The notes below the pieces were generated by a model. It ran no database searches. It worked only from the letters and a program-made list of their open reading frames with translations, and was not told where the DNA came from. The position numbers and the translations under genes are program-made. A DNA stretch of 64,000 bases, taken from positions 35,290 through 99,289 of the forward strand of contig JAGACA010000009.1 in NCBI GenBank assembly GCA_017614315.1, written 5' to 3'. Below, piece after piece: positions 1 through 14,936 of the stretch (position 1 is its first letter; every line of letters starts with the position of its first letter). The DNA comes from Clostridia bacterium. Its GTDB lineage: Bacteria > Bacillota > Clostridia > Christensenellales > CAG-138.

Positions 1-3000
1 TCGCTGATGACCGTCTATAACGGCAGCATCAGCTATCTTAACGTATCCGCCGGAAGCCTCGCCCTTTCGGGCAGTCAGACCACCGTGTGGCACGAGGAAG
101 CCGTCGCGAACAGCTCCAACAAGAGGTATTATTACGTCGACGGCGAGAGCGTCAAGTGGTATATCCGCTTCAACGGCACCAACTGGGATCTTTTCCCCGC
201 GAACGCTTCATACAAGATCTATAACGGCAGCGATTACTTCGGCCTCAGCAGCGGGAGCTTCGCGCTTACCGCCTCCGGCGCGGCCGCCGATTGGGGCACG
301 AACTCCAGCGGCCATATCTACACCGTGGTGAGCGGCGCGATCAAATACCTCACCGTAAACACCTCCGGCACCGGCTCCCTAACCCTCGGCGACACGCCCA
401 CGGTTTGGACGTATACCACCGGCGGCGGCGAAATGTACTGCACCGTCGGCGGGGAGACCTGGTACGTATATAAGCAGAACTCCAACTGGGTGGTGTATCC
501 CGCTTCAACGGTCTATGCCATCTCTCAGGGGGGGCAGTACCTCGTCTCGGCCAGCAACACGACGGTAGGTCAGGTATCGAACGTCAACAGCGCGTCCCGC
601 TGGGTCGTGAGCGGCGGACAGATATATACCTATTACGGCGGCGACCGCAGGTACTTAAAGTCCAACGAGCCCGGCGTTTCGCTCGTGACCTCCTCCGGTT
701 CGCCCTCGACCTGGACGTTCGCGAACAGCGTTTATTCGTCCAACGGCTGGAGCCTTATCTACGACAGCGAGAGCGGCTGGACTACCTATCCCTCGCTTTC
801 GTATTTCACGATCGACGACGGCACCAATTATCTCAAATGCTCGGGCGGCACGCTTTCGAACGTGTCTTCTTCCGGCTCGCCCACGAAATGGTACGCCGAC
901 GGCACTAAGATATTCTGCATCAACGGCAGCTCGAAGTATTATCTCCGCGGGACCGCCTCCGCCCTTTCCGCCAGCACGAACGGCTCCGAGTCCGGCTACG
1001 TTTACGATTTCACCTATGACGGAACGAACAAGAGGCTGTCCTTTACCTCCGGCTCCGGCACCCGCTACGTTATCTATAACGGTTCGAACTGGATCGTCAG
1101 CGATAGCTACGAAAAGCCCAAGACCATATCGACGACCGTAAGCGGAACGACGTATTACCTCAACAGGAACGGCACCACGGGCGTCACGACCACGTCGTCG
1201 TCCTCCGACGTGACCGAGTGGACGTACGATCCCTCCACGAACAAGATCTACACCACCGTCAGCGGCACTCCGTATTATCTGCGCGGCGTGCTCGACAGCC
1301 GCGAGACCACGGGCATGACGAACCTCGGGCTCACGACCTCTTCGACCGCGACCGGCACGACCTGGACCTATTCCGGCAACACCCTTACCTGCAGCATCCC
1401 GGTCACCGTCGGAGGTTCGAGCACCGCTACGACCTATACCATGGTGTTCTATGACGGCTCGTTCAGGCTGATCGACCTCGCAAGGAACTATTATACCGTC
1501 AAGTTCTACAACTCCAGCAACTATATGTCGACGAACACTAACAGCACTCCGACCGCCGCCAGCCAGACCACCGCGGCAAACGCGACGCTGTGGACGTTCT
1601 CGAACGATTCCAATACTTCGAGCACTTCTGCGAGCTGGACTTCGTCGCAGATCTATACCACCGTAAACGGTACGAGGTATTATCTTTACAATATCCCGAA
1701 TTCAAGTAACGGCAGCACCTCGATCACCTTCAGCACGAGCACGCCCAGCACCACGCCTTCCTACGCGTATTACTCGTCCTATTCCGCTTATTCTATAAGG
1801 ATATCCTATTATCTTAACTATTACAGTTCCAACTGGACCGGTTATAACAGCCAGGACCAGTATGCGGCTATGACTTTGGGCAAGGTCACGTTTTCCGCCG
1901 CCAACGTAATGCTCGCCGCGTCCGACTACATCACGCAGGAGACCGCCGGCACGACGTCAGTTACTACCACAAGGACCTCGTACAGTGCCGCGACGATGTA
2001 TTTCACCGATACCTCGTCCAACACCTCGCACACCCTCACCTCGTATACGGAGAACTACAGCCACACCTATTCCGAGGGCTCCGAGTCCACCGAGGTCTAC
2101 GCGGCCGACGACTCCATCAGGCTGATGACCATAACCTCCGCAACGGGTCTGCAGAGCGGCAATCCCACGTATTTCCCGATCCGCGTCGACAGGACGTCCT
2201 CGGGCGCTTTCCCGACGGGTTATCCCGCGTCCGACAAGAACACGGGCTATATAATCAGCGGCGCTAACGTCGAGGACAGCGGCTCCGGCACGAACGACAC
2301 AGCAAAAACATGGGGCGACATCCGCGTGTCGGGTTATCCCATCAGCCAGATCGCGACGTCCTACTCCACCTCCGGTCTTACCGTTTCGAGGATAGGCTAT
2401 ACGTACAGCAGCACCACCCATTACCTGCGCGTTTCGAAGAGCGGCAATAACTACGTCCTCGGCGACACTACCACGAAGTCAGAGGCCAATTTCTGGGAGA
2501 TCTCGACGAGCGGAGGCACCATAAAGACGACCGTCGGCGGCAAGACCTTCTATCTCGCCCTCAGCGGCTCGACCCTGAGCATCACCGAATCAGCGTACAG
2601 CAGCTGGTCCTTCAATACGGGAAGCAGCTATATCTACAACGGAAGCAACTACCTTAAGTACAACGGCAGCGCCTGGGCGGCGTCCAGCGGCACGGCCGCA
2701 CTCGTGCTGACGCTCGGCACGCTTGATTACAACGCGATCTACACCGCGGACGACAGCGGCATACATACCCTGACAAGCGATCAGAAGACCGACGTTTTCT
2801 ATCAGGCGGCGCTACAGCTCACGCAGACGCTCGTCGAATCCGGCACCCACGTTTTCGGCCTCCACTTCATGGACGCGTCCATATCCATGGACCATTTGGT
2901 CAGGGCCAACTACGTCAATGTTTTCGGCGAGGAGTATTACGATTACGAGCTCCCGGAGGACAGCATCGACTTCCACGTCATCGAGCGAGGCACGATAAGC

Positions 3001-3882
3001 TTCTTCGCAGGCGACTATTTCAATAACCCCAACAACGATTCCTTCTTCTCCCTGCACCAGGTGTTCCGCTACACCGCTGCCGACGACGAAGTCGTTAACG
3101 GGCCGAAGAGGGAGCACGACATCAAATACATAAAGGAGATCGTCGCGATCTACGAACACGCCACGAGCGGCAACAAGGTCAACTTCATATACGAGTTCGC
3201 CGGCGGCACCTTCTCTAACGTGGACGGGTCGTATTCCGGCGCGGTCAGCCTGCCCACAGGCTATTCCTCGACCCCCGTATTCAAGACCAGCTGGATCAAG
3301 ACCCCCGGATTCAGCTCCGCAAGCACAAGGCTGTTCTTCTTCGAGATCCCCTGTAACTCCGGCGAGTACTGCCTGGGTTCCGTTTCCGGACACACCGGCG
3401 CGTATCTGGTCTACCTCGACATAGCCGCGAACGGCGGCGACGCGCTCGCGACCGCGGTCAGCTCCGACGGCAGCTCCTTCGCCAACTTCTTCAAGGTCGA
3501 TTACAGGGACGCGGGCGACTCCTCGAATCACGCGGTGCTCGTATTCTCGATCAACGCTCCCGACGTGACGGCGTCCGACAGCTATGATTTCTCGGTCACC
3601 GTTTCCTTCGACAGGTCGGACAACGGGGCTCCGCACCAAAGCGGCGTATACACTATAACGGTCGTAAATAAATCACCTTCCGCAGTCACGCTCAGCGTGC
3701 TCCTGTGCGACGAGGACAACAGCATGCTGACGCCGTTCCAATACGCGTACAGGGTTGTCTATACGAACAACGACCATACGAGCTCCACGATCCGAACGTT
3801 CATGGGCTATGACTATTTCCAGGCATACGGCGTGTTCTCGATCCCCGCGTCGGGCGTCGCATCGCTCAGCAGCTATAGCTGA
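1..3882 (+). CDS. Giant repetitive secreted/surface protein, 5' end outside window
   Basis: The frame is open from the first base, so the ATG at position 7 is probably internal and the true N-terminus lies upstream. The visible part is about 1,290 residues, very rich in Ser, Thr, Tyr, Gly and Asn. It repeats a loose unit of roughly 60-90 residues that ends in a 'IYTTVSGTxYYL' type strand; instances lie near residues 105, 145, 205, 300, 375, 417, 550 and 840. The pattern suggests a beta-rich (beta-trefoil or beta-propeller like) repeat. The last 350 residues are non-repetitive. No LPxTG motif or membrane anchor is visible at the C-terminus. Two signal peptidases encoded just downstream suggest it is a secreted client of that locus; this is inference. 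Family not recognised. Confidence 0.75.
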   Translation, partial: SLMTVYNGSISYLNVSAGSLALSGSQTTVWHEEAVANSSNKRYYYVDGESVKWYIRFNGTNWDLFPANASYKIYNGSDYFGLSSGSFALTASGAAADWGTNSSGHIYTVVSGAIKYLTVNTSGTGSLTLGDTPTVWTYTTGGGEMYCTVGGETWYVYKQNSNWVVYPASTVYAISQGGQYLVSASNTTVGQVSNVNSASRWVVSGGQIYTYYGGDRRYLKSNEPGVSLVTSSGSPSTWTFANSVYSSNGWSLIYDSESGWTTYPSLSYFTIDDGTNYLKCSGGTLSNVSSSGSPTKWYADGTKIFCINGSSKYYLRGTASALSASTNGSESGYVYDFTYDGTNKRLSFTSGSGTRYVIYNGSNWIVSDSYEKPKTISTTVSGTTYYLNRNGTTGVTTTSSSSDVTEWTYDPSTNKIYTTVSGTPYYLRGVLDSRETTGMTNLGLTTSSTATGTTWTYSGNTLTCSIPVTVGGSSTATTYTMVFYDGSFRLIDLARNYYTVKFYNSSNYMSTNTNSTPTAASQTTAANATLWTFSNDSNTSSTSASWTSSQIYTTVNGTRYYLYNIPNSSNGSTSITFSTSTPSTTPSYAYYSSYSAYSIRISYYLNYYSSNWTGYNSQDQYAAMTLGKVTFSAANVMLAASDYITQETAGTTSVTTTRTSYSAATMYFTDTSSNTSHTLTSYTENYSHTYSEGSESTEVYAADDSIRLMTITSATGLQSGNPTYFPIRVDRTSSGAFPTGYPASDKNTGYIISGANVEDSGSGTNDTAKTWGDIRVSGYPISQIATSYSTSGLTVSRIGYTYSSTTHYLRVSKSGNNYVLGDTTTKSEANFWEISTSGGTIKTTVGGKTFYLALSGSTLSITESAYSSWSFNTGSSYIYNGSNYLKYNGSAWAASSGTAALVLTLGTLDYNAIYTADDSGIHTLTSDQKTDVFYQAALQLTQTLVESGTHVFGLHFMDASISMDHLVRANYVNVFGEEYYDYELPEDSIDFHVIERGTISFFAGDYFNNPNNDSFFSLHQVFRYTAADDEVVNGPKREHDIKYIKEIVAIYEHATSGNKVNFIYEFAGGTFSNVDGSYSGAVSLPTGYSSTPVFKTSWIKTPGFSSASTRLFFFEIPCNSGEYCLGSVSGHTGAYLVYLDIAANGGDALATAVSSDGSSFANFFKVDYRDAGDSSNHAVLVFSINAPDVTASDSYDFSVTVSFDRSDNGAPHQSGVYTITVVNKSPSAVTLSVLLCDEDNSMLTPFQYAYRVVYTNNDHTSSTIRTFMGYDYFQAYGVFSIPASGVASLSSYS

Positions 3883-3907: not shown

Positions 3908-3943
3908 GGCCGGAGACCCCGCGGTCTCCGGCCTGTTTCGTTC
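3908..3943 (+). terminator. Terminator after the surface protein
   Basis: A perfect 11-bp stem (3908-3918 with 3923-3933) with a 4-base loop is followed by a weak T-rich stretch. It separates the surface protein gene from the signal peptidase operon. Confidence 0.75.
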
Positions 3944-3970: not shown

Positions 3971-3999
3971 TTTACAAATTATATCTTCTCTGCTATAAT
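3971..3999 (+). promoter_or_regulatory. Sigma-A promoter of the signal peptidase/AAA operon
   Basis: TTTACA (3971-3976), a 17-bp spacer and TATAAT (3994-3999), with an extended -10 TGC just before it. The leader to the first ATG is about 85 nt. This gives the six-gene run its own promoter, independent of the surface protein gene. Confidence 0.75.
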
Positions 4000-4092: not shown

Positions 4093-4866
4093 ATGGAAAA
4101 AACCGCTAAAAAATCCAGGAAGGTCTGGTCGGTCCTCGGCAACATATTCATATGGATATTCATTGCCTTCTCGGTCCTGATGACGGTGCTTGCGTTCGCC
4201 GCTCAGTCAAGTCCCGACGGCGTGCCGACGATCGGCAACACGGTGATACTGGTCGTGCAGTCGCCGTCCATGCAGCCGACCTTCAATGTGGGGGACATCA
4301 TTATCGGCAAGAAGGTTCCCGAAGAGGCCAAGACCGACCTTAAGGTCGACGAGATCATCACATTCGTCACCGACGACCTCGACGGCGACGGAAAGAGGGA
4401 CCTCAACACCCATAGGATAATCGAGATCGTCCCCGCGGACAACGGTTCCGTCACCTACGTTACTAAGGGCGATAACAACGCCATCGAAGACGCAAGGCAT
4501 GTCAACACGGTCGACATCGTCTGCCGTTGGGAAGGCACCCGCATCAAGGGGCTCGGCAAGGCCTTGAATTTCCTGCAGTCCCCGACCGGGTTCCTCGTGA
4601 CGATCGTTATCCCTCTCCTTCTGTTCTTCGTGCTTGAGATCGTTCTCTTCGTAAGGAAGGTCAACGAGGTCAGGAACCAGGGCAAGAAGCAGATCACCGC
4701 CGCCGATGAGGAGCTCATCAAGCAGCGCGCGATCGAGGAGTACCTCCGTCTGCAGAAGGAGGCCGAGGAAGCCGCCGAACCGGCAGCCGAAGCTCCCGCA
4801 GAAGCGCCTGCAGAAGAACCTGCTCCCGCCGAGGAGACCGACGCAGAGGCGCCCGAAGAAGCGTAA
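4093..4866 (+). CDS. Signal peptidase I, S26B (SipW/archaeal-ER) type
   Basis: A 257-residue membrane serine protease that would remove signal peptides from exported proteins. TM1 lies near residues 15-36. The catalytic Ser sits in the 'SPSMQPTF' box (about residue 60). The box that carries Lys in bacterial SipS/LepB reads 'NTHRIIEI', so His replaces Lys, which defines the S26B/SipW class. The 'KGDNN' box follows. TM2 lies near residues 155-180. The C-terminal cytoplasmic tail is a charged coil ending in Glu/Ala/Pro repeats, an addition not needed for catalysis. SipW-type enzymes typically serve dedicated secreted clients such as matrix proteins encoded nearby. It heads the operon and has a paralogue three genes later. 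Confidence 0.88.
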   Translation: MEKTAKKSRKVWSVLGNIFIWIFIAFSVLMTVLAFAAQSSPDGVPTIGNTVILVVQSPSMQPTFNVGDIIIGKKVPEEAKTDLKVDEIITFVTDDLDGDGKRDLNTHRIIEIVPADNGSVTYVTKGDNNAIEDARHVNTVDIVCRWEGTRIKGLGKALNFLQSPTGFLVTIVIPLLLFFVLEIVLFVRKVNEVRNQGKKQITAADEELIKQRAIEEYLRLQKEAEEAAEPAAEAPAEAPAEEPAPAEETDAEAPEEA

Positions 4867-4933
4867 TTTTTTCCCCATATCAGATATATACCCGTACAAG
4901 CAAACGCTAAATCTCTTGTAAGGATTATTAACA

Positions 4934-6535
4934 ATGGATTCTTTCCTGAATTGGCTTTTTGCCTTCATGACAACGATACTGGAAGGGCTGTGGAACGGCA
5001 TTAAGGGCGTGTTCCTCGCCATTTTCCAGTTCTTCAATTTCCCGAAGCTGTACGATCAGCTGACGATGTACAAGGGCGGCTTCAACTTCCTCGGTTGGGT
5101 GCTTTGCGTGATCACCGTCATACTGACCTACGCCATCGTGGCCGCTCTCGTCGTGCTCATCGCGCTCGCCATAAGGAAGTACGTCCGCTTCCGCAAGTCC
5201 ATCGTCGGCAGCGAGGACCTTCTTGAGGAGATCGCGGATCTTCACCGCGACGTAATCAAGCTCACCAAGGAAAAGGAGCATATCCTCTCGCTCAAGTTCG
5301 ACCCGACCGGATTCACCTATGACCAGCTCGTCTCCGCTATGGGCGACGTCGAGGCCGCCGGCGCTCTTGCCGTAAGCAATATCCCCGGCCGTACCGGCGG
5401 GACGGTCGCCGCAGCAGCCTCCGGCAGCAAGGACACCGCTCCCGTCGATGGCTCCAAGCGTTTCTATCGCCTTTCCGCCGTCGACGAAAAGTACAAATTC
5501 TACGTACCGCCCGAGTATGACAGGTCGATGGGGCTTAAGGAGCTCTGCGACGATATAAGGTACTTCTCCTGCTCCCGTTCGAAGCTCTATTACGAGATCA
5601 AGACCATTCGTCTTCTGATCGCCGGTCTTGCCTCCACGAAGCTCATACTCCTGCAGGGTATTTCCGGTACAGGTAAGACCTCGCTTCCCTACATGATGGG
5701 TAAGTACTTCCAGAACGACTCCACCATCGCTTCCGTTCAGCCGTCGTGGCGCGACCGCACCGAGCTCTTCGGATACTTCAACGAGTTCACCAAGAAGTTC
5801 AACGAGACCGAGGTCCTGAGGCGCATCTATGAAGCAAGCTTCAACGACGACATCAACATAATCATCCTCGACGAGATGAACATCGCGCGAGTCGAGTACT
5901 ACTTCGCGGAAATGCTCTCCATCCTTGAGATGCCGAACCCCGAAGAGTGGAAGATCGAGCTCGTTCCCTCGAGCTGGCCGACCGACCCGCAGAACTTGAA
6001 GGACGGCAAGCTGCAGATACCGCAGAACGTGTGGTACATCGGCACGGCGAACAACGACGACTCGACCTTCGCCGTATCCGATAAGGTTTACGACCGTGCC
6101 CTCGTTATCAACCTCGATTCGAAGGGCGTCGCGTTCGACGCTCCCGATACGCCGCCGAAGAACATCAGCTATTCCTACGTCGAATCGCTTTACGAAAAGG
6201 CCTGCAATGAGTTCCCCGTTACGGAGAAGAGCCTGCAGAACATCGCGAAGCTCGACCTCTACGTCATCGAAAAATTCCGTGTGGCGTTCGGTAACCGTAT
6301 CATCAAGCAGCTCAAGTACTTCGTTCCCGTATTCGTCGCCTGCGGCGGCACCGAGAACGAGGGTATCGACTACATCCTCGCCACCAAGGTCTTCCGTAAG
6401 TTCGAGGGCCTGAACATTTCGCTCATCCGCGACGAGATCAGGGGTCTCATACTCCAGCTCGACAACCTGTTCGGTAAGGGCGAAATGAAGGAGTGCATAA
6501 TCTATCTCCAGCGTCTCCAGAAAATGATGTATTAA
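4934..6535 (+). CDS. Membrane-anchored McrB-like AAA+ ATPase
   Basis: 533 residues. The N-terminus has hydrophobic segments near residues 5-35 and 52-80, then a short coiled stretch (90-115). The AAA+ module starts near residue 215: Walker A 'GISGTGKTS' (about 241), Walker B 'IIIILDEMN' (about 309) and a sensor-1 'IGTANND' (about 370). The 'LDEMN' Walker B is characteristic of the McrB/dynein-related AAA_5 group. McrB enzymes are soluble GTPases; this one is membrane-tethered, and the NKxD-type GTP signature was not identified. The next gene lies 15 bp downstream and resembles part of a McrC-type partner. A motor that remodels or exports membrane or surface proteins is inferred from context; restriction is less likely. 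Confidence 0.8.
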   Translation: MDSFLNWLFAFMTTILEGLWNGIKGVFLAIFQFFNFPKLYDQLTMYKGGFNFLGWVLCVITVILTYAIVAALVVLIALAIRKYVRFRKSIVGSEDLLEEIADLHRDVIKLTKEKEHILSLKFDPTGFTYDQLVSAMGDVEAAGALAVSNIPGRTGGTVAAAASGSKDTAPVDGSKRFYRLSAVDEKYKFYVPPEYDRSMGLKELCDDIRYFSCSRSKLYYEIKTIRLLIAGLASTKLILLQGISGTGKTSLPYMMGKYFQNDSTIASVQPSWRDRTELFGYFNEFTKKFNETEVLRRIYEASFNDDINIIILDEMNIARVEYYFAEMLSILEMPNPEEWKIELVPSSWPTDPQNLKDGKLQIPQNVWYIGTANNDDSTFAVSDKVYDRALVINLDSKGVAFDAPDTPPKNISYSYVESLYEKACNEFPVTEKSLQNIAKLDLYVIEKFRVAFGNRIIKQLKYFVPVFVACGGTENEGIDYILATKVFRKFEGLNISLIRDEIRGLILQLDNLFGKGEMKECIIYLQRLQKMMY

Positions 6536-6550
6536 GTTTAAGGAGCAGTT

Positions 6551-7924
6551 ATGCCGGAGCAAGCCAACAACCCAAGCCCCATGAAGCGCGTGTATGACGA
6601 CACCACGTATTTCATCGACAGCATCGTCAGCGATTACGATATGGTGTCGGGCATACTCGGCGTCATGCGCGACGGCAGCGCGACGATAGAGCTCAAAAAG
6701 CGCTATCTTCTTCGCGCTATCGACGAGACATGGGTCAACGTCATCGAGGATACCCTTCCCTCCCTTGACACGATCATAAGGAACCCCGGCAAGTTCATTG
6801 AAGAACGCGAAGAGGTCATCCCCGTCGAGTTTGCAAGGAGCACTTCTTCCCGCTCGCTCCAGCATCTTTCCCAGCACACCAATCTCATATCCGAATACGA
6901 CGCGTCTACAGGCAACGTGACCCCCACGAAGATACTCAACGTATTCCGTGAGGAAACGATGATGACGTATGAAAACAAGTTCATCAATACGCTCATCAAC
7001 CGCCTTTACGCATTTGTCAACCGCAGGTACGAGATCGCCAAAAAGGCCGGTCAGGACGAAAAGACCACCAGCATCGATTTCAAGGAAAACTTCGAGCACG
7101 GCAAGGTCCATGTCAAGATGAATTTCCGCGTCGAGATCTCCGAGTCCGCCGTCGATGAGGACGACCGGGTCGAAAGGAACTACACCTTCACGACCGATCT
7201 GTGGCGCAGGGTCGAAAAACTGAACAGCATAGTCACCATGTACGCCGAATCCGAGTTCTGCCAGAATATGGGCAAGAATTACATCCGGCCGCCGGTGATG
7301 CGCACCAATATGATCTTGAAGAACAAGAATTTCCGTCAGTGCCATGCGCTGTGGCAGTTCATCGAGGGCTACGATCAGGCGGGTTACTCCATGCTTATCC
7401 AGGAGGATCTCGAAAACGTCGACGACGTCTATATCAAGGAGCTCTACTCGACTCTCGCCCTCCAGTATCTTATCTTCCGCTACAACATAAAGAACGAATT
7501 CGATTCCGACTCCACTCTCGCGAGCGAGATCACGGAAAACGTGCTGAACCCGCGCATCATCGACAAGATCTCCGCCGCCGCGAGCGACGAATTCGATATC
7601 CCCGTCGAAGAGCGCACCGTTCCCCCGCCCTCGCTTACAAGGTATGTCAGCCTCACCCCCGATGACGAGCTGGCGCTCGCGTCGCTCGACGTCGCGCTTG
7701 ACGCCTGCGACATAATCCGCGAGAATCACGACGAGGAATATTACGATCCCGGCGATATCCCCGAGCCCGCCGACGACACGCCCCCCGCGCCCGAAAGCGG
7801 CGAAGGCGAAGAAAGCGCTCCCTCGGATGCAGAAGCCTCGGCTGAGGCCGCGATCGAGCCGGGCGAGGCCGTTCCCGCGGCCGCCGTGCAGGTCGTCGAC
7901 ATGGATGACGACGGGCTTGAATGA
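6551..7924 (+). CDS. DUF2357/McrC-N-like partner of the AAA ATPase
   Basis: 457 residues, soluble, no signal peptide or membrane segment. Around residue 138 it has 'TYENKFINTLINRLYAFV', the 'YEN+F' helix typical of DUF2357/McrC-type N-terminal domains, and near residue 250 an 'RPPVMRTNMILKNKNFR' stretch that fits the same fold family. I see no PD-(D/E)xK nuclease motif in the rest, so it appears to be an adaptor without nuclease. The last 60 residues are acidic Glu/Pro/Ala-rich low complexity. The RBS 'AAGGAGCAG' precedes the ATG. The pairing with the McrB-like ATPase 15 bp upstream supports a two-component complex. The domain assignment is from motif resemblance only. Confidence 0.6.
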   Translation: MPEQANNPSPMKRVYDDTTYFIDSIVSDYDMVSGILGVMRDGSATIELKKRYLLRAIDETWVNVIEDTLPSLDTIIRNPGKFIEEREEVIPVEFARSTSSRSLQHLSQHTNLISEYDASTGNVTPTKILNVFREETMMTYENKFINTLINRLYAFVNRRYEIAKKAGQDEKTTSIDFKENFEHGKVHVKMNFRVEISESAVDEDDRVERNYTFTTDLWRRVEKLNSIVTMYAESEFCQNMGKNYIRPPVMRTNMILKNKNFRQCHALWQFIEGYDQAGYSMLIQEDLENVDDVYIKELYSTLALQYLIFRYNIKNEFDSDSTLASEITENVLNPRIIDKISAAASDEFDIPVEERTVPPPSLTRYVSLTPDDELALASLDVALDACDIIRENHDEEYYDPGDIPEPADDTPPAPESGEGEESAPSDAEASAEAAIEPGEAVPAAAVQVVDMDDDGLE

Positions 7925-8784
7925 GGCTGCAAATGAAGAAAAAACGCAGTGTTGTAAAATCTGTATTCTCCTGTTTGGGATATGCCCTGATAGTCGCCCT
8001 GATAGCCATGTTCGGCTATGTCATGGTTTCGAAGGCCACCGGCAAGATCAGGTTTATCGCCGGAAAAGCGACCGTGTGGGTCCTGAGCAACAGCATGTCC
8101 CCGACTATACCGGAGCGCAGCTATATCCTGGTTGAAAAGGTCTCTCCCGACGACGTAAAGGTCGGCGACGTGATCCTCTTTGTTTCGGACGATCCCGCGA
8201 TAAAGGGCAGCTACAACACCCACCGCGTTATCGGCATAACCGACACGTATTTCGAAACGATGGGCGACAACAACCTCGCTCCGGACAACTATCCCGCCAG
8301 AAAGGAATGCGTCGTCGCGGTCTATAAGAAAAACCTCGAAACGCTTTCCATGTTCGGCAGGTTCCTTTCCTCCGAAACGGGCGTCATCTCCTCCATAGCT
8401 CTGATACTCTCTATAACCGCCGCCATGTTCATGCCCGAGCTGAGGCGCATGCGCGAGGCTCAGGACGACGAGCTCGAGAAGCAGCGCAAGGAGAACATCG
8501 AGGCGCTCGTCAAGCTTGAGGTCGAAAAGATGCGTATGCTCGCCGCCGTAAAGGAAGCGGCCGCAAAAAAGCCCGATCAGGAAAAAGAGCCTGAGCCGGA
8601 AGAAGCGCCTGAGCCGGAAGAAGCGCCGGTATCCGAAAACGATCCGGAGCCTTCCTCCGAGCCCGAGCAGGTATCCGAAGAGGCGTCCGAAACCGAAACA
8701 GATCCGGAGGAGATCTCCGGCAAAGATATTATAGAAAACGCGGAACCCGAGATCATCAAAGACGAAGGAGTTCAGAATGTTTAA
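7921..8784 (+). CDS. Second signal peptidase I, S26B (SipW-like) type
   Basis: 287 residues from the ATG that overlaps the previous stop (ATGA); an alternative start at 7933 gives a more typical 'MKKKRSVV' N-terminus and follows an 'ATGAGG' RBS-like sequence. TM1 lies near residues 15-38. The catalytic Ser is in 'SNSMSPTI', His replaces Lys in 'NTHRVIGI', and 'MGDNN' follows. TM2 lies near residues 155-178, then a basic coiled coil and an acidic tail of repeated 'EPEEAPEPEE'-like units. The same architecture (protease, second TM, long charged tail) appears in the first gene of the operon, so the tails may bind the ATPase or adaptor; that is inference. Two diverged SipW-type enzymes around one ATPase pair is unusual. 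Confidence 0.85.
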   Translation: MRLQMKKKRSVVKSVFSCLGYALIVALIAMFGYVMVSKATGKIRFIAGKATVWVLSNSMSPTIPERSYILVEKVSPDDVKVGDVILFVSDDPAIKGSYNTHRVIGITDTYFETMGDNNLAPDNYPARKECVVAVYKKNLETLSMFGRFLSSETGVISSIALILSITAAMFMPELRRMREAQDDELEKQRKENIEALVKLEVEKMRMLAAVKEAAAKKPDQEKEPEPEEAPEPEEAPVSENDPEPSSEPEQVSEEASETETDPEEISGKDIIENAEPEIIKDEGVQNV

Positions 8785-9004
8785 GAAAATGCGCCTTAAA
8801 AAGGCAATCGCTGACAGCAAAAAAAAGATCGCTCTTCTTGAGCAGAAGCGTTCCCGTTCGCAGGCGGCGCTCGTCGAGGCGATCCTGACTCATACCGAAC
8901 CCGACGACAAGGACGTCGACTACTTCAACGAGTTTACCGAACAGATCGAAAACGAGAGGAACAACCTCCATAAGCTCATGGCGGAGCTCGAAGCGATCTC
9001 GTAA
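8777..9004 (+). CDS. Small coiled-coil protein of the signal peptidase/AAA operon
   Basis: 75 residues, overlapping the signal peptidase stop by 8 bp and preceded by a good 'GAAGGAG' ribosome site. The sequence is almost entirely helical and charged, with heptad-like Leu/Ile spacing, and no Cys or membrane segment. It resembles short coiled-coil scaffolding proteins, but I recognise no family. Overlap and strong RBS support translation coupled to the upstream genes. Confidence 0.7.
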   Translation: MFKKMRLKKAIADSKKKIALLEQKRSRSQAALVEAILTHTEPDDKDVDYFNEFTEQIENERNNLHKLMAELEAIS

Positions 9005-9031
9005 CAGCCGCCGAGGCGGTATATTGCCCGA

Positions 9032-11335
9032 ATGAACAGCAAACAGCGCGCAGCAAGGACCCGGGCTCTGATCTTCGCGATCATATGCATTTCGGGACTT
9101 ATATTGATAGGATCGAGCATCGTCCTCTTGATCTCCTATGTGCAGGATCTGAGGGCCGATGCTGCTTTTGCCGCACAGAGGTCGACCTCCGTTACGGCGG
9201 AAAGACTCCGCGACGCGCTGAGATCATACGAGCTCTCCGCGAAAGCGGCGGCTTCCGCCGTTGAAAACGGCAGCTATAAGGACGAGACCGAATTCCAGAC
9301 CCAGTTCCAAAGGACCGTTACGAGCGTCATCCCCGACAACATCCTGTTCCTTCGCTATTTCAACAACGGGAACGAATACCGTTCCAACGGCGATCCTTTC
9401 GATAAGAGCAACGAGTCGCAGGTAGTGCTCGACCTGGTCTCCAAACGCGTCGCGGTCTGCGCCGGCGTCGTGGACGACCGCGAGTTCTCGATAAGTACGA
9501 TACCCGTTTGCGTGCCGATCTACAACTGTCCGTACGCCGACGCGATGGTCATCTATTATCATACGAGCACTTTCTCATGGCTGAACGACGATAAATACTC
9601 CTCGGATTACGCCGGCTCGAGGCTTACCGGCATCTGTTCCGCCTCGGGCGAGACCATCGCCGTGCTCCACAGGAACGATTTCGAGATATCCCAGCACAAC
9701 AATATCTACGAGGTGCTCCGCTCGAAGATCAATGACAAGAGCCTGATCGACAGCATTAAGTCGACCGTCAATTCCGCGACGGCGGAATATTACGACGTCA
9801 CGATAAGCGACAAGGAGTGCATCGTTGCCGTCGAGTCCATCAACGAATACGAGCTGACCACTTTCTTCATTGTGGGCGTTTACAACAACGACGAGCTCGC
9901 CGAGGCCGGCTATGACATTATCAGGGTGCTCCTCGGCATATTCGCCGTGCTGTTCGTGCTCCTTATCGTCATCACGGTGGTCATGCTCATCAAGAACAAG
10001 CGCGACATCGACCGCGCCGCGAACTCGAACGACAGCGACGATCAGCTCGGATGCCCCACCCGCTCCAAATTCGAGCGCACCGCGACGGATATAATCAACC
10101 GCAATAAGGCGACGCAGTTCGCCGTTATCGCGATAGACGTCAACCACTATGACTACCTGAACGAGCAGAACGGTCACGAGACGCTGCTCGACATACTCCA
10201 GCACCTGAAGCTCCTGTACTCGAAGCTCCTTCAGATCGACGAGACCTACGGCTATCTCAACAGCGGCAGGTTCGTGCTCCTCCTCCATTACCGCGAGATG
10301 GATACCCTCGCCGAAAGGCTGAACCATGTCTCGCTGCTCGCGTCCGCGCACGGCACCAACCTTTCCGGCCGTTTCCCGCTGGAGCTTATCGGCGGTATCT
10401 GCTGTGTAAAAAACAACGTCACCAACCAGGTCTCGAAGATGATCGACCTTGCGATCGACGCCGAAAAGACCAGTTCCTCCGATTACGACTTCGGCATGTT
10501 CAGGATCTATAACGAGCGTATTCACGCATCGAGGGTTCAGAACGACTACATCGAGCTGCACATGGAATCCGCCCTCGAGCACAAGGACTTCCGCGTGTTC
10601 TATCAGCCGAAGTTCCATATCTTCAACAACGTGACCGACGGTGCGGAAGCGCTCGTCCGCTGGTATAACCCCGAGCTCGACGATTACATGCAGCCGGGCG
10701 TGTTCCTGCCGCTGTTCGAGGCGAACCGCTTCATCGTCAAGGTCGACAGATACGTGTATGAACAGGTCTGCACCTATATCGAGGAAGCCATCGGAAACAA
10801 CCTGCCCATCGTCCCGATCTCCGTCAACGTTTCGAGGATCACGGCGGCCGACAGCGACTTCGTTTCTTACTACACCGCCGTCAAACAGCAGCACGGCATC
10901 CCCGACGGCTTCATAATGATAGAGTTCACCGAAAGCTTCGCGTACGAGGATTACGACATGCTGCGCGAGATCGTCACCAAGCTGCACGATAACGGCTTCA
11001 AGTGCTCCATCGACGACTTCGGATCGGGCTTCTCCTCCTACAATATTTTGAAGGAGCTGCCCATGGACGAGATCAAGCTCGACCGCTTCTTCATCAAGGA
11101 AGGCTTCGAGCGCGACCGCGATCTGAAGATCCTGAAGAGCGTTATCGAGCTCGGCCGCGCCCTCAACATGAAGGTCACGCAGGAGGGCGTCGAGACCATC
11201 GACCAGCTCGCCCTGTTAAGGAGCCTTGGCTGTCACGTCATACAGGGCTATCATTATTCGAAGCCTCTGTCGCTTCCCGCTTTCATGGAGTTCCTCGAAA
11301 GCAAGGGCACAAGGACGCACAACAGCACTTATTGA
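9032..11335 (+). CDS. Membrane sensor with degenerate GGDEF and intact EAL (c-di-GMP phosphodiesterase)
   Basis: 767 residues. TM1 (10-35) and TM2 (292-317) enclose an extracytoplasmic region of about 250 residues that is probably a Cache-type sensor. A GGDEF-fold domain follows, but at its signature site it reads 'NSGRF' (about 409), so it cannot make c-di-GMP. The EAL domain begins near 505 and keeps the key boxes: 'EAL' (about 537), 'DDFGSGFSS' (about 659) and 'EGVE' (about 716), so hydrolysis of c-di-GMP is expected. It lies 27 bp after the coiled-coil gene with no promoter between them, which suggests that the surface/export locus is tied to c-di-GMP signalling. Confidence 0.9.
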   Translation: MNSKQRAARTRALIFAIICISGLILIGSSIVLLISYVQDLRADAAFAAQRSTSVTAERLRDALRSYELSAKAAASAVENGSYKDETEFQTQFQRTVTSVIPDNILFLRYFNNGNEYRSNGDPFDKSNESQVVLDLVSKRVAVCAGVVDDREFSISTIPVCVPIYNCPYADAMVIYYHTSTFSWLNDDKYSSDYAGSRLTGICSASGETIAVLHRNDFEISQHNNIYEVLRSKINDKSLIDSIKSTVNSATAEYYDVTISDKECIVAVESINEYELTTFFIVGVYNNDELAEAGYDIIRVLLGIFAVLFVLLIVITVVMLIKNKRDIDRAANSNDSDDQLGCPTRSKFERTATDIINRNKATQFAVIAIDVNHYDYLNEQNGHETLLDILQHLKLLYSKLLQIDETYGYLNSGRFVLLLHYREMDTLAERLNHVSLLASAHGTNLSGRFPLELIGGICCVKNNVTNQVSKMIDLAIDAEKTSSSDYDFGMFRIYNERIHASRVQNDYIELHMESALEHKDFRVFYQPKFHIFNNVTDGAEALVRWYNPELDDYMQPGVFLPLFEANRFIVKVDRYVYEQVCTYIEEAIGNNLPIVPISVNVSRITAADSDFVSYYTAVKQQHGIPDGFIMIEFTESFAYEDYDMLREIVTKLHDNGFKCSIDDFGSGFSSYNILKELPMDEIKLDRFFIKEGFERDRDLKILKSVIELGRALNMKVTQEGVETIDQLALLRSLGCHVIQGYHYSKPLSLPAFMEFLESKGTRTHNSTY

Positions 11336-12715: not shown

Positions 12716-13360
12716 TCAGCAGAAAGCGTGGTTGCCGATCCGAAGCAGCACCGGCCTTGCCAGCATCCAACGACTCGTCGCGGTCTTGGGATTGTAGTAA
12801 AACAGGCAGCCGTTGGTAGGATCCCAGCCGTTGAGCGCGTCGCGCGCCGCCCTGACCGCAGTCGCGTCGGGAGCAAGATTGATCTGCCCGTCCGACACAG
12901 CGTCGAAGGCGCCGCGCTGGTAAATGACGCCCGCGATGGTGTTGGGGAAACTCGCGCTCTTCACGCGGTTCAGGACCACCGCGCCTATCGCCACCTGTCC
13001 CTTATAGGGCTCGCCTCGCGCCTCGCCGTAGATTATCCTCGCGAGCAGGTACACGTCGCCTGTCGTCGTTCCGGAGGACGAGCCGGAGCTTAACGTTATG
13101 CCCATCTTTGCGGCGGTCGCGGGGCCGACGACGCCGTCGGCCTTAAGGCCGTTCTTCTTCTGAAAGCTCTTTACGGCGGCGAGCGTCCCGCTTCCGAAGA
13201 TCCCGTCCACGCTGCCGCTGTAATAGCCCCATTTCTTAAGCGCCTTCTGTATCTTTATGACGTCGTCGCCCCTTGCGCCGTAGCCCACGCTCGCGGCGAG
13301 CACTACCGTCGGCACAACGAGGAGCGCGATCATTATCATCGCCGCGATCCTTCTTTTCAC
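12716..13360 (-). CDS. sleB: Spore cortex-lytic enzyme SleB
   Basis: 214 residues from a GTG at 13360 that overlaps the spoIIR stop (GTGA) and follows a 'GGGAGG' site 9-10 bases upstream. A signal peptide (1-25) ends at 'VLAAS'. The peptidoglycan-binding domain covers about 30-88 and the hydrolase domain (Hydrolase_2/SleB) about 100-214, with the catalytic Glu in 'IYGEARGE' and the family end block around 'NPKTATS'. The enzyme is a lytic transglycosylase that degrades muramic-lactam cortex during germination. The domain order and length fit SleB. It is sandwiched between spoIIR and ypeB, so all three are probably co-transcribed. Confidence 0.93.
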   Translation of the reverse strand: MKRRIAAMIMIALLVVPTVVLAASVGYGARGDDVIKIQKALKKWGYYSGSVDGIFGSGTLAAVKSFQKKNGLKADGVVGPATAAKMGITLSSGSSSGTTTGDVYLLARIIYGEARGEPYKGQVAIGAVVLNRVKSASFPNTIAGVIYQRGAFDAVSDGQINLAPDATAVRAARDALNGWDPTNGCLFYYNPKTATSRWMLARPVLLRIGNHAFC

Positions 13361-13905
13361 AGGCCGAACACCTCCCTTATGAAGTCCCAGATATAGCTTT
13401 TGAACTTGAGCGTGCCGTCGTCGTTGAACTCGGCGGGCTCGTCCTCCGTCTCGACAAGGCACAGGGGAGGGAACATCACGCACCACCAGTTATGCCCTTC
13501 GCCGCTGCCGAGCACCACGCGAAGCGCCTTGTACTTTCCCGCGGGATAGAGCTTTCTTCCGTATACCCTGTCGGGGAAATCAAATTCGCCGAGATACAGC
13601 TCGGCGCCGTAGTCCATGCCGTTTTGGGAAAGCGTGTTTTCGGCGGCGGACAGGAATTCTCCGCCGAGCGACATAAGCTCCGCCTCCGCCTCGTCGCGGT
13701 CGGACGCAGTGAAGCTTTCGCGCGCACAGGCGAGTATCGCGTCCCTGACCTTAAGCTTGACCTCCCGGTCGGCATCCGAATCGCTGTTCGCGATCACGTG
13801 GAGCCTAATACATTCGTCCGCCCTGCCCAAGTCCTTCGTGACGGCCGCAAAAAGCACAGCCGCCGCAAGAAGAACGGCGGTTAGGACGCCGAGTACCGTT
13901 TTCAT
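13357..13905 (-). CDS. spoIIR: Stage II sporulation protein R
   Basis: 182 residues from the ATG at 13905, which lies 8 bases after AGGAG; an in-frame ATG at 13911 and a GTG at 13914 are too close to or overlap that site. An N-terminal signal or membrane segment covers residues 3-22. The family blocks 'IRLHVIANSDSDADREVKLK' and 'HNWWCVMFPPLCLVE' are both present. SpoIIR is made in the forespore and triggers SpoIIGA to process pro-sigma-E in the mother cell. Here it shares an overlapping operon with the germination genes sleB and ypeB, which is not the Bacillus subtilis arrangement. Confidence 0.95.
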   Translation of the reverse strand: MKTVLGVLTAVLLAAAVLFAAVTKDLGRADECIRLHVIANSDSDADREVKLKVRDAILACARESFTASDRDEAEAELMSLGGEFLSAAENTLSQNGMDYGAELYLGEFDFPDRVYGRKLYPAGKYKALRVVLGSGEGHNWWCVMFPPLCLVETEDEPAEFNDDGTLKFKSYIWDFIREVFGL

Positions 13906-13937
13906 TTTCATCACTCCTTTTTGTGTGTCTGCAAAAT

Positions 13938-13967
13938 TAGGATTGACAAACCGACGTCCAAAAATAC
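13938..13967 (-). promoter_or_regulatory. Candidate forespore (sigma-F/G type) promoter for spoIIR-sleB-ypeB
   Basis: On the minus strand GTATT (13963-13967), 18 bp, then AATCCTA (13938-13944). This matches the sigma-G consensus GHATR-N18-CATNHTA except for one base in each box. It overlaps the -35 of the divergent ispE promoter. A candidate only. Confidence 0.4.
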
Positions 13968-13972
13968 ATAAT
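13943..13972 (+). promoter_or_regulatory. Sigma-A promoter of ispE with almost no leader
   Basis: TTGACA (13943-13948), 18-bp spacer, CATAAT (13967-13972). The -10 abuts the ATG at 13973, so transcription should begin near the second ATG at 13979, giving a nearly leaderless message. Confidence 0.6.
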
Positions 13973-14848
13973 ATGGTTATGAAAAAGTTTTCTGTAAAAG
14001 AAAAAGCATACGCGAAGGTGAATCTGACGCTGGACGTAAAGAAAAAACGCCCTGACGGATATCACGAGCTCGAGGGGATTATGCAGTCCGTCTCGCTCGC
14101 AGACGAGGTCGAGGCGCGTCCCGGCGAGGGTATCAAAGTCGTATTCGATTCGCCCGTGCCCGAAAACAACACCTGCAGAAGGGCTGCGGAGCTATTCCTT
14201 GCGGGATCGGGGCTCGGTGCGGAGATATCCGTCAGAAAGCGCATCCCGTCCGAAGCCGGGCTCGGCGGCGCGTCCGCGGACGCGGCGGCGGCGCTTCGCG
14301 CGCTGAATAAGATCTATGCGGGAACGCCGCTCGAGCGGACGGAGGACGAGCTCCTCAGCATCGGCCTTAAAATCGGCGCGGACGTTCCGTTCTGCCTTAC
14401 GGGCGGATGCGCTGTCGCGCGCGGCGTGGGCGAGATACTCACACCCGTCGGCGGCATGTCGCTCGACCTCCTTATCGTGCGCGGATCTCGCGGCGTGTCG
14501 ACGGGCAGACTGTTCGCCTCCCTCGGCGTTGGCGAAAAAGACGAGAGCCGCCTTCCCGAGGGGACTCTTCAAAACGCCCTTGCCGCGATCGAAAAAAAGG
14601 ACGCCCGCGCGCTCGGCGCGTGCGTATCGAACGCACTTACCCCTGCCGCATGCCTTATCGCGCCGGAGATAGGCGAATACGCCGCCCGCATGAAGGCGCT
14701 CGGCGCGCTCGGCGCGTCGATGACCGGTTCCGGCGCGGCGGTGTTCGGGATCTTTCCCGACGCGGAAAGCGCGAAAAAAGCGTACGACGGCTTTGCGGAC
14801 TGCGAATTCAGAGCAGCATGTAAGACAAAGTCAGGAATTTGGAGTTAG
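13973..14848 (+). CDS. ispE: 4-diphosphocytidyl-2-C-methyl-D-erythritol kinase
   Basis: 291 residues from the ATG at 13973, or 289 from 13979, which fits the promoter position better. It is a GHMP kinase of the MEP isoprenoid pathway that phosphorylates CDP-methylerythritol. The N-terminal 'AKVNLTLDVKKKRPDGYHEL' block and the glycine-rich ATP motif 'SEAGLGGASADAAAAL' (about residue 90) are diagnostic, and 'SGAAVFGIF' closes the C-terminal domain. Length is normal. It is divergent from spoIIR and convergent with hbd. No strong Shine-Dalgarno lies before either start, in keeping with the leaderless reading. Confidence 0.95.
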   Translation: MVMKKFSVKEKAYAKVNLTLDVKKKRPDGYHELEGIMQSVSLADEVEARPGEGIKVVFDSPVPENNTCRRAAELFLAGSGLGAEISVRKRIPSEAGLGGASADAAAALRALNKIYAGTPLERTEDELLSIGLKIGADVPFCLTGGCAVARGVGEILTPVGGMSLDLLIVRGSRGVSTGRLFASLGVGEKDESRLPEGTLQNALAAIEKKDARALGACVSNALTPAACLIAPEIGEYAARMKALGALGASMTGSGAAVFGIFPDAESAKKAYDGFADCEFRAACKTKSGIWS

Positions 14849-14854
14849 AAATCG

Positions 14855-14899
14855 AAAACAGCTTTGTATCATTAAAATACAAAGCTGTTTTGATTTTTT
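14855..14899. terminator. Terminator between ispE and hbd, nested in a palindromic repeat
   Basis: Perfect 13-bp stem (14857-14869 with 14877-14889) followed by T-rich sequence. It is flanked by inverted 'GGAGTTAG' (14840s) and 'CTCCTAACTC' (14920s) arms. Confidence 0.8.
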
Positions 14900-14936
14900 G
14901 GATAGGAAAGCTTTACCTATACTCCTAACTCCCAAC

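Follow-up and report, generated by a model that had tools for sequence, protein, structure and literature searches.

A membrane-anchored McrB-like AAA+ protein and a DUF2357 protein encoded together with SipW-like signal peptidases in Clostridia

A block of six co-directional genes was analyzed at positions 4093-11335 of a 64,000-nucleotide stretch of Clostridia bacterium DNA (assembly GCA_017614315.1, contig JAGACA010000009.1, positions 35,290 to 99,289 of the forward strand), which is called the window as a whole. The genes encode, in this order, a first signal peptidase (SP1), a membrane AAA+ protein, a partner protein with a DUF2357 domain, a second signal peptidase (SP2), a coiled-coil-like protein of 75 amino acids and a GGDEF-EAL protein. 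On balance, the locus seems to be a membrane-bound derivative of McrBC, in which an AAA+ ring and a DUF2357 activator work for signal peptidases where McrBC has a nuclease. What the sequences themselves show of this is the linkage of the genes, the conserved catalytic residues, the fold of the partner, which is that of the N-terminal part of McrC, its lack of a nuclease domain and the fusion of DUF2357 proteins to signal peptidases.

The core of the block already carries a name. CoCoPALM loci, named in one paragraph of Bell et al., eLife 2024 (PMC11090510), as part of a survey of type IV restriction, are given there as an NxD-type McrB-like AAA protein with a transmembrane (TM) segment and a coiled coil, a McrC homologue and nearby proteins of the signal peptidase family, the latter being viewed as likely pilus assembly factors. 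The NNDD motif of the AAA+ protein, the DUF2357 domain of its partner and the peptidases on both sides agree with this description, and the hydrophobic segment and coiled-coil-like stretch of the AAA+ protein may correspond to the TM segment and coiled coil given there; the statement of the original prediction, made from the sequence alone, that no such system had been described is contradicted by that paragraph. The present account adds client proteins, a degenerate EAL protein, a small coiled-coil protein and the fusion of DUF2357 to a peptidase to the core as named there. The terms SipW, EAL, cyclic di-GMP (c-di-GMP) and TasA do not occur in the main text of the paper, the supplements lying outside this comparison. 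Among the papers found under the name CoCoPALM, only this one and its preprint are, judged by title, on the topic, and the entries listed for DUF2357, SipW and McrB/McrC with signal peptidases show no account of clients, a fusion or EAL proteins with the core.

Conservation of the four-gene core

A scan of genomes yielded at least 492 stretches that encode an AAA+ relative, the best 80 of which were examined as a first set, each gene being counted only in loci with enough contig for it. SP1 lies upstream of the AAA+ gene in 70/70 loci, a DUF2357 gene is present in 77 of 80, and SP2 follows downstream, separate or fused, in 60/60. Two further families accompany the core: cli2, an anchored protein with a hydrophobic N-terminal segment, was found in 50 of 55 loci and a profile match to cli1, a client with a SipW-type signal, in 23 of 34. 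An EAL gene of any kind is present in 34/34 loci, and upstream in 49/55.

The second set consisted of 20 further loci from genomes of the order, recounted by best match, of which 19 are new since L179 was taken as identical to L075 of the first set. The AAA+ and DUF2357 genes occur in all 20, two peptidase open reading frames (ORFs) in 19, the exception being L168, which breaks off within the DUF2357 gene, and cli2 and cli1 in 17 each. An EAL-type protein is encoded in 15, the best match being the degenerate type in 11 and the full type in 6. The gene order is variable in this set, e.g., AAA-SP1-DUF2357-SP2, while the core stays together. None of the block families (AAA, DUF2357, peptidases, cli2, cli1 and EAL-type) turned up in 19 control loci, which lie on other contigs and in 16 cases belong to one of the same genomes; the 3.7-kb control locus L159 was left out. 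The co-occurrence of the four core genes outside the source genome, as predicted originally, is therefore borne out by both sets.

The membrane AAA+ protein occurs in 66 of 396 genomes of the order and cli2 in 70; both are present in 63, the AAA+ protein alone in 3, cli2 alone in 7 and neither in 323 (Fisher p 4e-61, uncorrected for relatedness). Named strains with a relative include, among the matches listed, Ruminococcus albus, R. flavefaciens and Eubacterium ruminantium.

The membrane AAA+ protein and its DUF2357 partner

The AAA+ gene (4934-6535, forward strand, as are all features of the window given below) encodes a protein with a single hydrophobic segment (residues 62-80), a coiled-coil-like stretch (about 92-125), a Walker A motif (242-250), the sequence DEMN (313-316) and the sequence NNDD (373-376). 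Its profile matches E. coli McrB (6hz4) at 3.7e-8. The hydrophobic segment is present in 78/78 AAAs longer than 500 amino acids, and the coiled-coil-like stretch is conserved among relatives as well. In a search for an FtsB-like domain of TM segment and coiled coil, the Pfam family DivIC matched 1 of 20 AAA+ members (E 0.022). The residues N373-N-D375-D376 are found in 81/81 AAAs and fit the CoCoPALM NxD motif, which is usually followed by E/D, and the letters also fit NxxD. Their region aligns to E. coli McrB without gaps, and their spacing equals that of NMDE in 9/9 soluble McrB-like relatives (L182-L190), which are a possible source family. The AAA+ profile matches in 58 of 398 genomes of the phylum.

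In addition, a second subfamily (L029 8043-12172, G054 and other genomes of the order) has a tandem pair of McrB-like AAAs beside lipoprotein-like genes. In L029 the two AAAs, with N-termini that appear hydrophobic by eye, flank one DUF2357 gene, and a cli2 match was not found in G054. In one genome (L026 10742-13590, G059:C28) a second, truncated AAA gene and an interrupted DUF2357 gene lie downstream of SipW-type client genes.

The partner (6551-7924; 457 amino acids with an acidic, disordered C-terminus) matches Pfam DUF2357 at 4.8e-10, above the cut-off. Its structure model has a fold like that of the N-terminal half of McrC and matches a part of McrC outside the nuclease. Beyond about residue 320, only one helix (370-397) is confident, the remainder having mostly a predicted local distance difference test score (pLDDT) below 65, and the protein therefore has no room for a nuclease domain. 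No PD-(D/E)xK or other nuclease family is among its Pfam matches up to E 1. The view that the partner is free of an active nuclease fold thus withstood both the structure model and the family search. The McrC homologue of CoCoPALMs usually has a coiled coil; relatives of the partner have long charged C-terminal stretches, but the protein of the window has one 28-residue helix and the acidic tail.

In 17 of 77 loci, DUF2357 and SP2 are fused in one ORF of 973-1053 amino acids. All 17 have the same order, i.e., the DUF2357 part, a long charged stretch and the signal peptidase with its hydrophobic segments, and all retain the Ser and His of SP2; a further SP2 is absent from the examined flank in 16 of them, this flank being short in some. 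For the fusion of R. albus KH2T6, Pfam places DUF2357 at 72-171 and Peptidase_S26 at 791-851, and for that of R. flavefaciens Y1 it recognizes the peptidase only, the DUF2357 part being found by a custom profile. McrC consists, according to PMC11090510, of DUF2357 and a nuclease. In the fusion a signal peptidase is joined to DUF2357 instead, and no other observation hints as strongly that the peptidase may occupy the effector position.

Signal peptidases, clients and EAL proteins

SP1 (4093-4866, Ser59/His107) and SP2 (7921-8784, Ser58/His101) exceed the cut-off of 51.85 for TIGR02228, the model of archaeal/ER-type signal peptidases, with scores of 77.0 and 79.9. For the SipW model NF046067 with its curated cut-off of 190, they fall short with 98.6 and 61.8. 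A Ser-His dyad is characteristic of archaeal/ER-type (SipW-like) enzymes, and both residues are invariant among the aligned relatives of SP1 and SP2. The C-terminal tails noticed before were found again, that of SP1 with a conserved EEEIKRRAIEEY-type motif among relatives and that of SP2 being long and charged.

To the left of the window and in the same direction, a degenerate EAL gene (L004 12311-13294), cli2 (13294-14031) and the SipW-type client cli1 (14152-14913) are followed by an O-antigen-ligase-like gene, a gene for a 326-amino-acid protein and the gene of a giant repeat protein. The client genes and the degenerate EAL gene belong with the locus. The cli1 proteins carry ...TYA-WFSMN. 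Signals with an aromatic second residue are poorly cleaved by E. coli signal peptidase I, and TasA of this kind is cleaved by SipW, according to the abstract of PMC10269814. The cli1 set was picked by this aromatic pattern, so the residue is not independent evidence. With a strict pattern, SipW-type signals were found near the block in 17 of 20 loci vs. 1 of 19 control loci; with a looser one, which also caught some AAAs, in 18 of 20 vs. 4 of 19. The structure model of one cli1 protein (L036) is all-beta with middling confidence, and a comparison with the PDB gave no decisive match. The module is quite likely dedicated to SipW-type surface proteins.

The giant protein has 1968 amino acids and a SipW-type signal at its N-terminus. 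Its gene starts before the window (G000:C4:33265), and its 3′ part covers 1-3882, upstream of SP1 as had been noted. However, a repetitive surface protein is not always adjacent, as homologues of the giant occur in only 9 of 100 related loci. A perfect 11-bp hairpin with a 4-nt loop (3908-3933) and a T-rich stretch after it, read by eye and not contained in the program scan, parts the giant gene from SP1 and is likely the terminator of the giant gene. The ORFs of the block lie as claimed, as an operon-like run with gaps of 67, 15, -4, -8 and 27 nt. For the single promoter proposed with it, a site TTTACA-17-TATAAT (3971-3999, 11/12 match, TG before the second hexamer) precedes SP1, but it is only suggestive, since 4 such sites were found in the scanned stretch vs. 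4.2 expected.

The gene of the 75-amino-acid protein (8777-9004) lies below the 80-amino-acid limit of the first ORF list. Where SP2 and EAL stand close, a relative lies between them in 15 of 25 loci. The family has the conserved core RSQAAL...DVDYFN and no Pfam match over the cut-off. In the window, its gene is followed by the GGDEF-EAL gene (9032-11335), in which the GGDEF motif is degenerate, as judged by eye, and the EAL catalytic residues are intact. EAL phosphodiesterases depend on the catalytic residues E, N, E, DD, K, E and Q, and these are present in 25-26 of 26 downstream sequences, including the one of the window. Of the 49 loci of the first set with 9 kb of flank, 19 have a full-length EAL gene downstream; the R. 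albus and R. flavefaciens loci seen have none within the examined flank. A small degenerate EAL gene lies upstream in 45 of 55. In most of the 50 sequences of the small protein, Glu, Asn, both Asp, Lys and Gln are no longer present, and the protein of this locus and its relatives have conserved residues of their own (N105, G110 and P114). A role in protein binding is therefore possible, and the degenerate EAL protein may act as an adaptor. The c-di-GMP input that had been proposed is partly supported by these EAL genes.

The module sits between galU and ypeB in the source genome. In six congeners, no block member was detected by profile in this stretch, and the same tRNA-Val and tRNA-Gln pair with other cargo was found in 7/7 congener stretches (G011: ypeB side only). 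In the own genus and family, 0 of 36 other genomes has an AAA+ relative at E 0.001, G011 matching the profile weakly (6.9e-5). In the congener that is closest by ypeB identity, the tRNA-Val/Gln site (L191 5072-17086, G003:C34) is occupied by a large cluster, which encodes a Tubulin_2 GTPase as well as large proteins that have no Pfam match. Since the congener sites have the same tRNA pair, other cargo and no block members, the copy in the source genome was probably acquired at a variable cargo site.

Proposed function and rival explanations

In the mechanism that we infer, a single TM helix together with a coiled coil would tether the AAA+ protein to the membrane; the protein would assemble into a ring, in which the DUF2357 protein would dock like McrC. 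Coiled coils, tails of suitable topology or the fusion would join the latter to the two Ser-His peptidases. Turnover of nucleoside triphosphates (NTPs) would then control or power the processing and release of SipW-type surface proteins, i.e., cli1, here also the giant and probably cli2, and the processed proteins may build fibres or a surface layer. A degenerate and an active EAL protein would link the system to c-di-GMP in a part of the family. NTP-dependent control of the peptidase seems possible, if somewhat doubtful. To our knowledge, signal peptidases are regarded as enzymes without a motor. An effector swap, by which the McrBC motor and activator were relocated to the membrane while a signal peptidase took over from the nuclease, is a tentative idea; this would then be the first signal peptidase driven by NTPs, and it would be under the control of c-di-GMP in some members of the family and devoted to building a surface fibre or layer.

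Comparable systems share parts of this arrangement. The AAA+ protein and its partner match McrB and McrC (outside the nuclease) of the McrBC systems of E. coli and T. gammatolerans, from which the block differs by the missing nuclease, the membrane anchor and the signal peptidase in the presumed effector position. The SipW-TasA/TapA system of Bacillus subtilis has a Ser-His peptidase with surface clients. The block resembles it in its SipW-like peptidases and in the client signal A-W-F with an aromatic second residue, but has two peptidases, the AAA-DUF2357 pair, EAL proteins and a client fold without a decisive PDB match. In LapD-LapG-LapA, c-di-GMP controls a giant adhesin through a degenerate EAL protein and a protease. 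The same kinds of parts stand together here, likened by parts and not by sequence, whereas the degenerate EAL protein of the block has lost most residues of the c-di-GMP site.

The discovery of the CoCoPALMs in a survey of type IV restriction (PMC11090510), a match of the AAA+ protein to the PADLOC candidate PDC-M26A (8.6e-38) and the variable, tRNA-side location of a module absent in congeners are all consistent with anti-phage defence. Such a system would sense infection at the membrane, with the peptidases or membrane damage as effector and the surface genes as passengers or bait. The partner, however, lacks a nuclease, and cli2, cli1 and EAL-type genes belong to the conserved block; of the 57 genomes that have other McrB-like AAAs, 2 have cli2. 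Furthermore, no defence genes were spotted by eye among the neighbouring ORFs, which were not scanned with a defence library. Defence is thus an improbable function of the locus.

A role in quality control, in which the AAA-DUF2357 pair clears the membrane of signal peptides after cleavage or of SipW-type preproteins that have stalled, and cleavage is independent of it, would suit an AAA+ protein with a conserved TM segment and coiled-coil-like stretch and its linkage to peptidases and clients. This seems unlikely, as a degradative protease was not recognized in the block and the DUF2357-peptidase fusion speaks for direct control of the peptidase. That a SipW-type secretion locus merely shares its operon with an unrelated McrBC-like pair is highly implausible given a linkage which persists through changes of gene order, the fusion and the co-occurrence across the order.

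The four-gene core, which the 80 loci examined contain in full wherever their contigs are long enough, couples signal peptidases to a type of AAA+ machine familiar from the restriction of DNA. If the reading as a peptidase-serving McrBC derivative is true, it would show how a defence motor is put to use in protein export. The CoCoPALM loci, which have been named but not explored, would thereby gain a function, and a surface system found in Clostridia of the rumen and gut would be accounted for. The locus suggests that in many of these bacteria a defence motor has been rebuilt for making surface structures.
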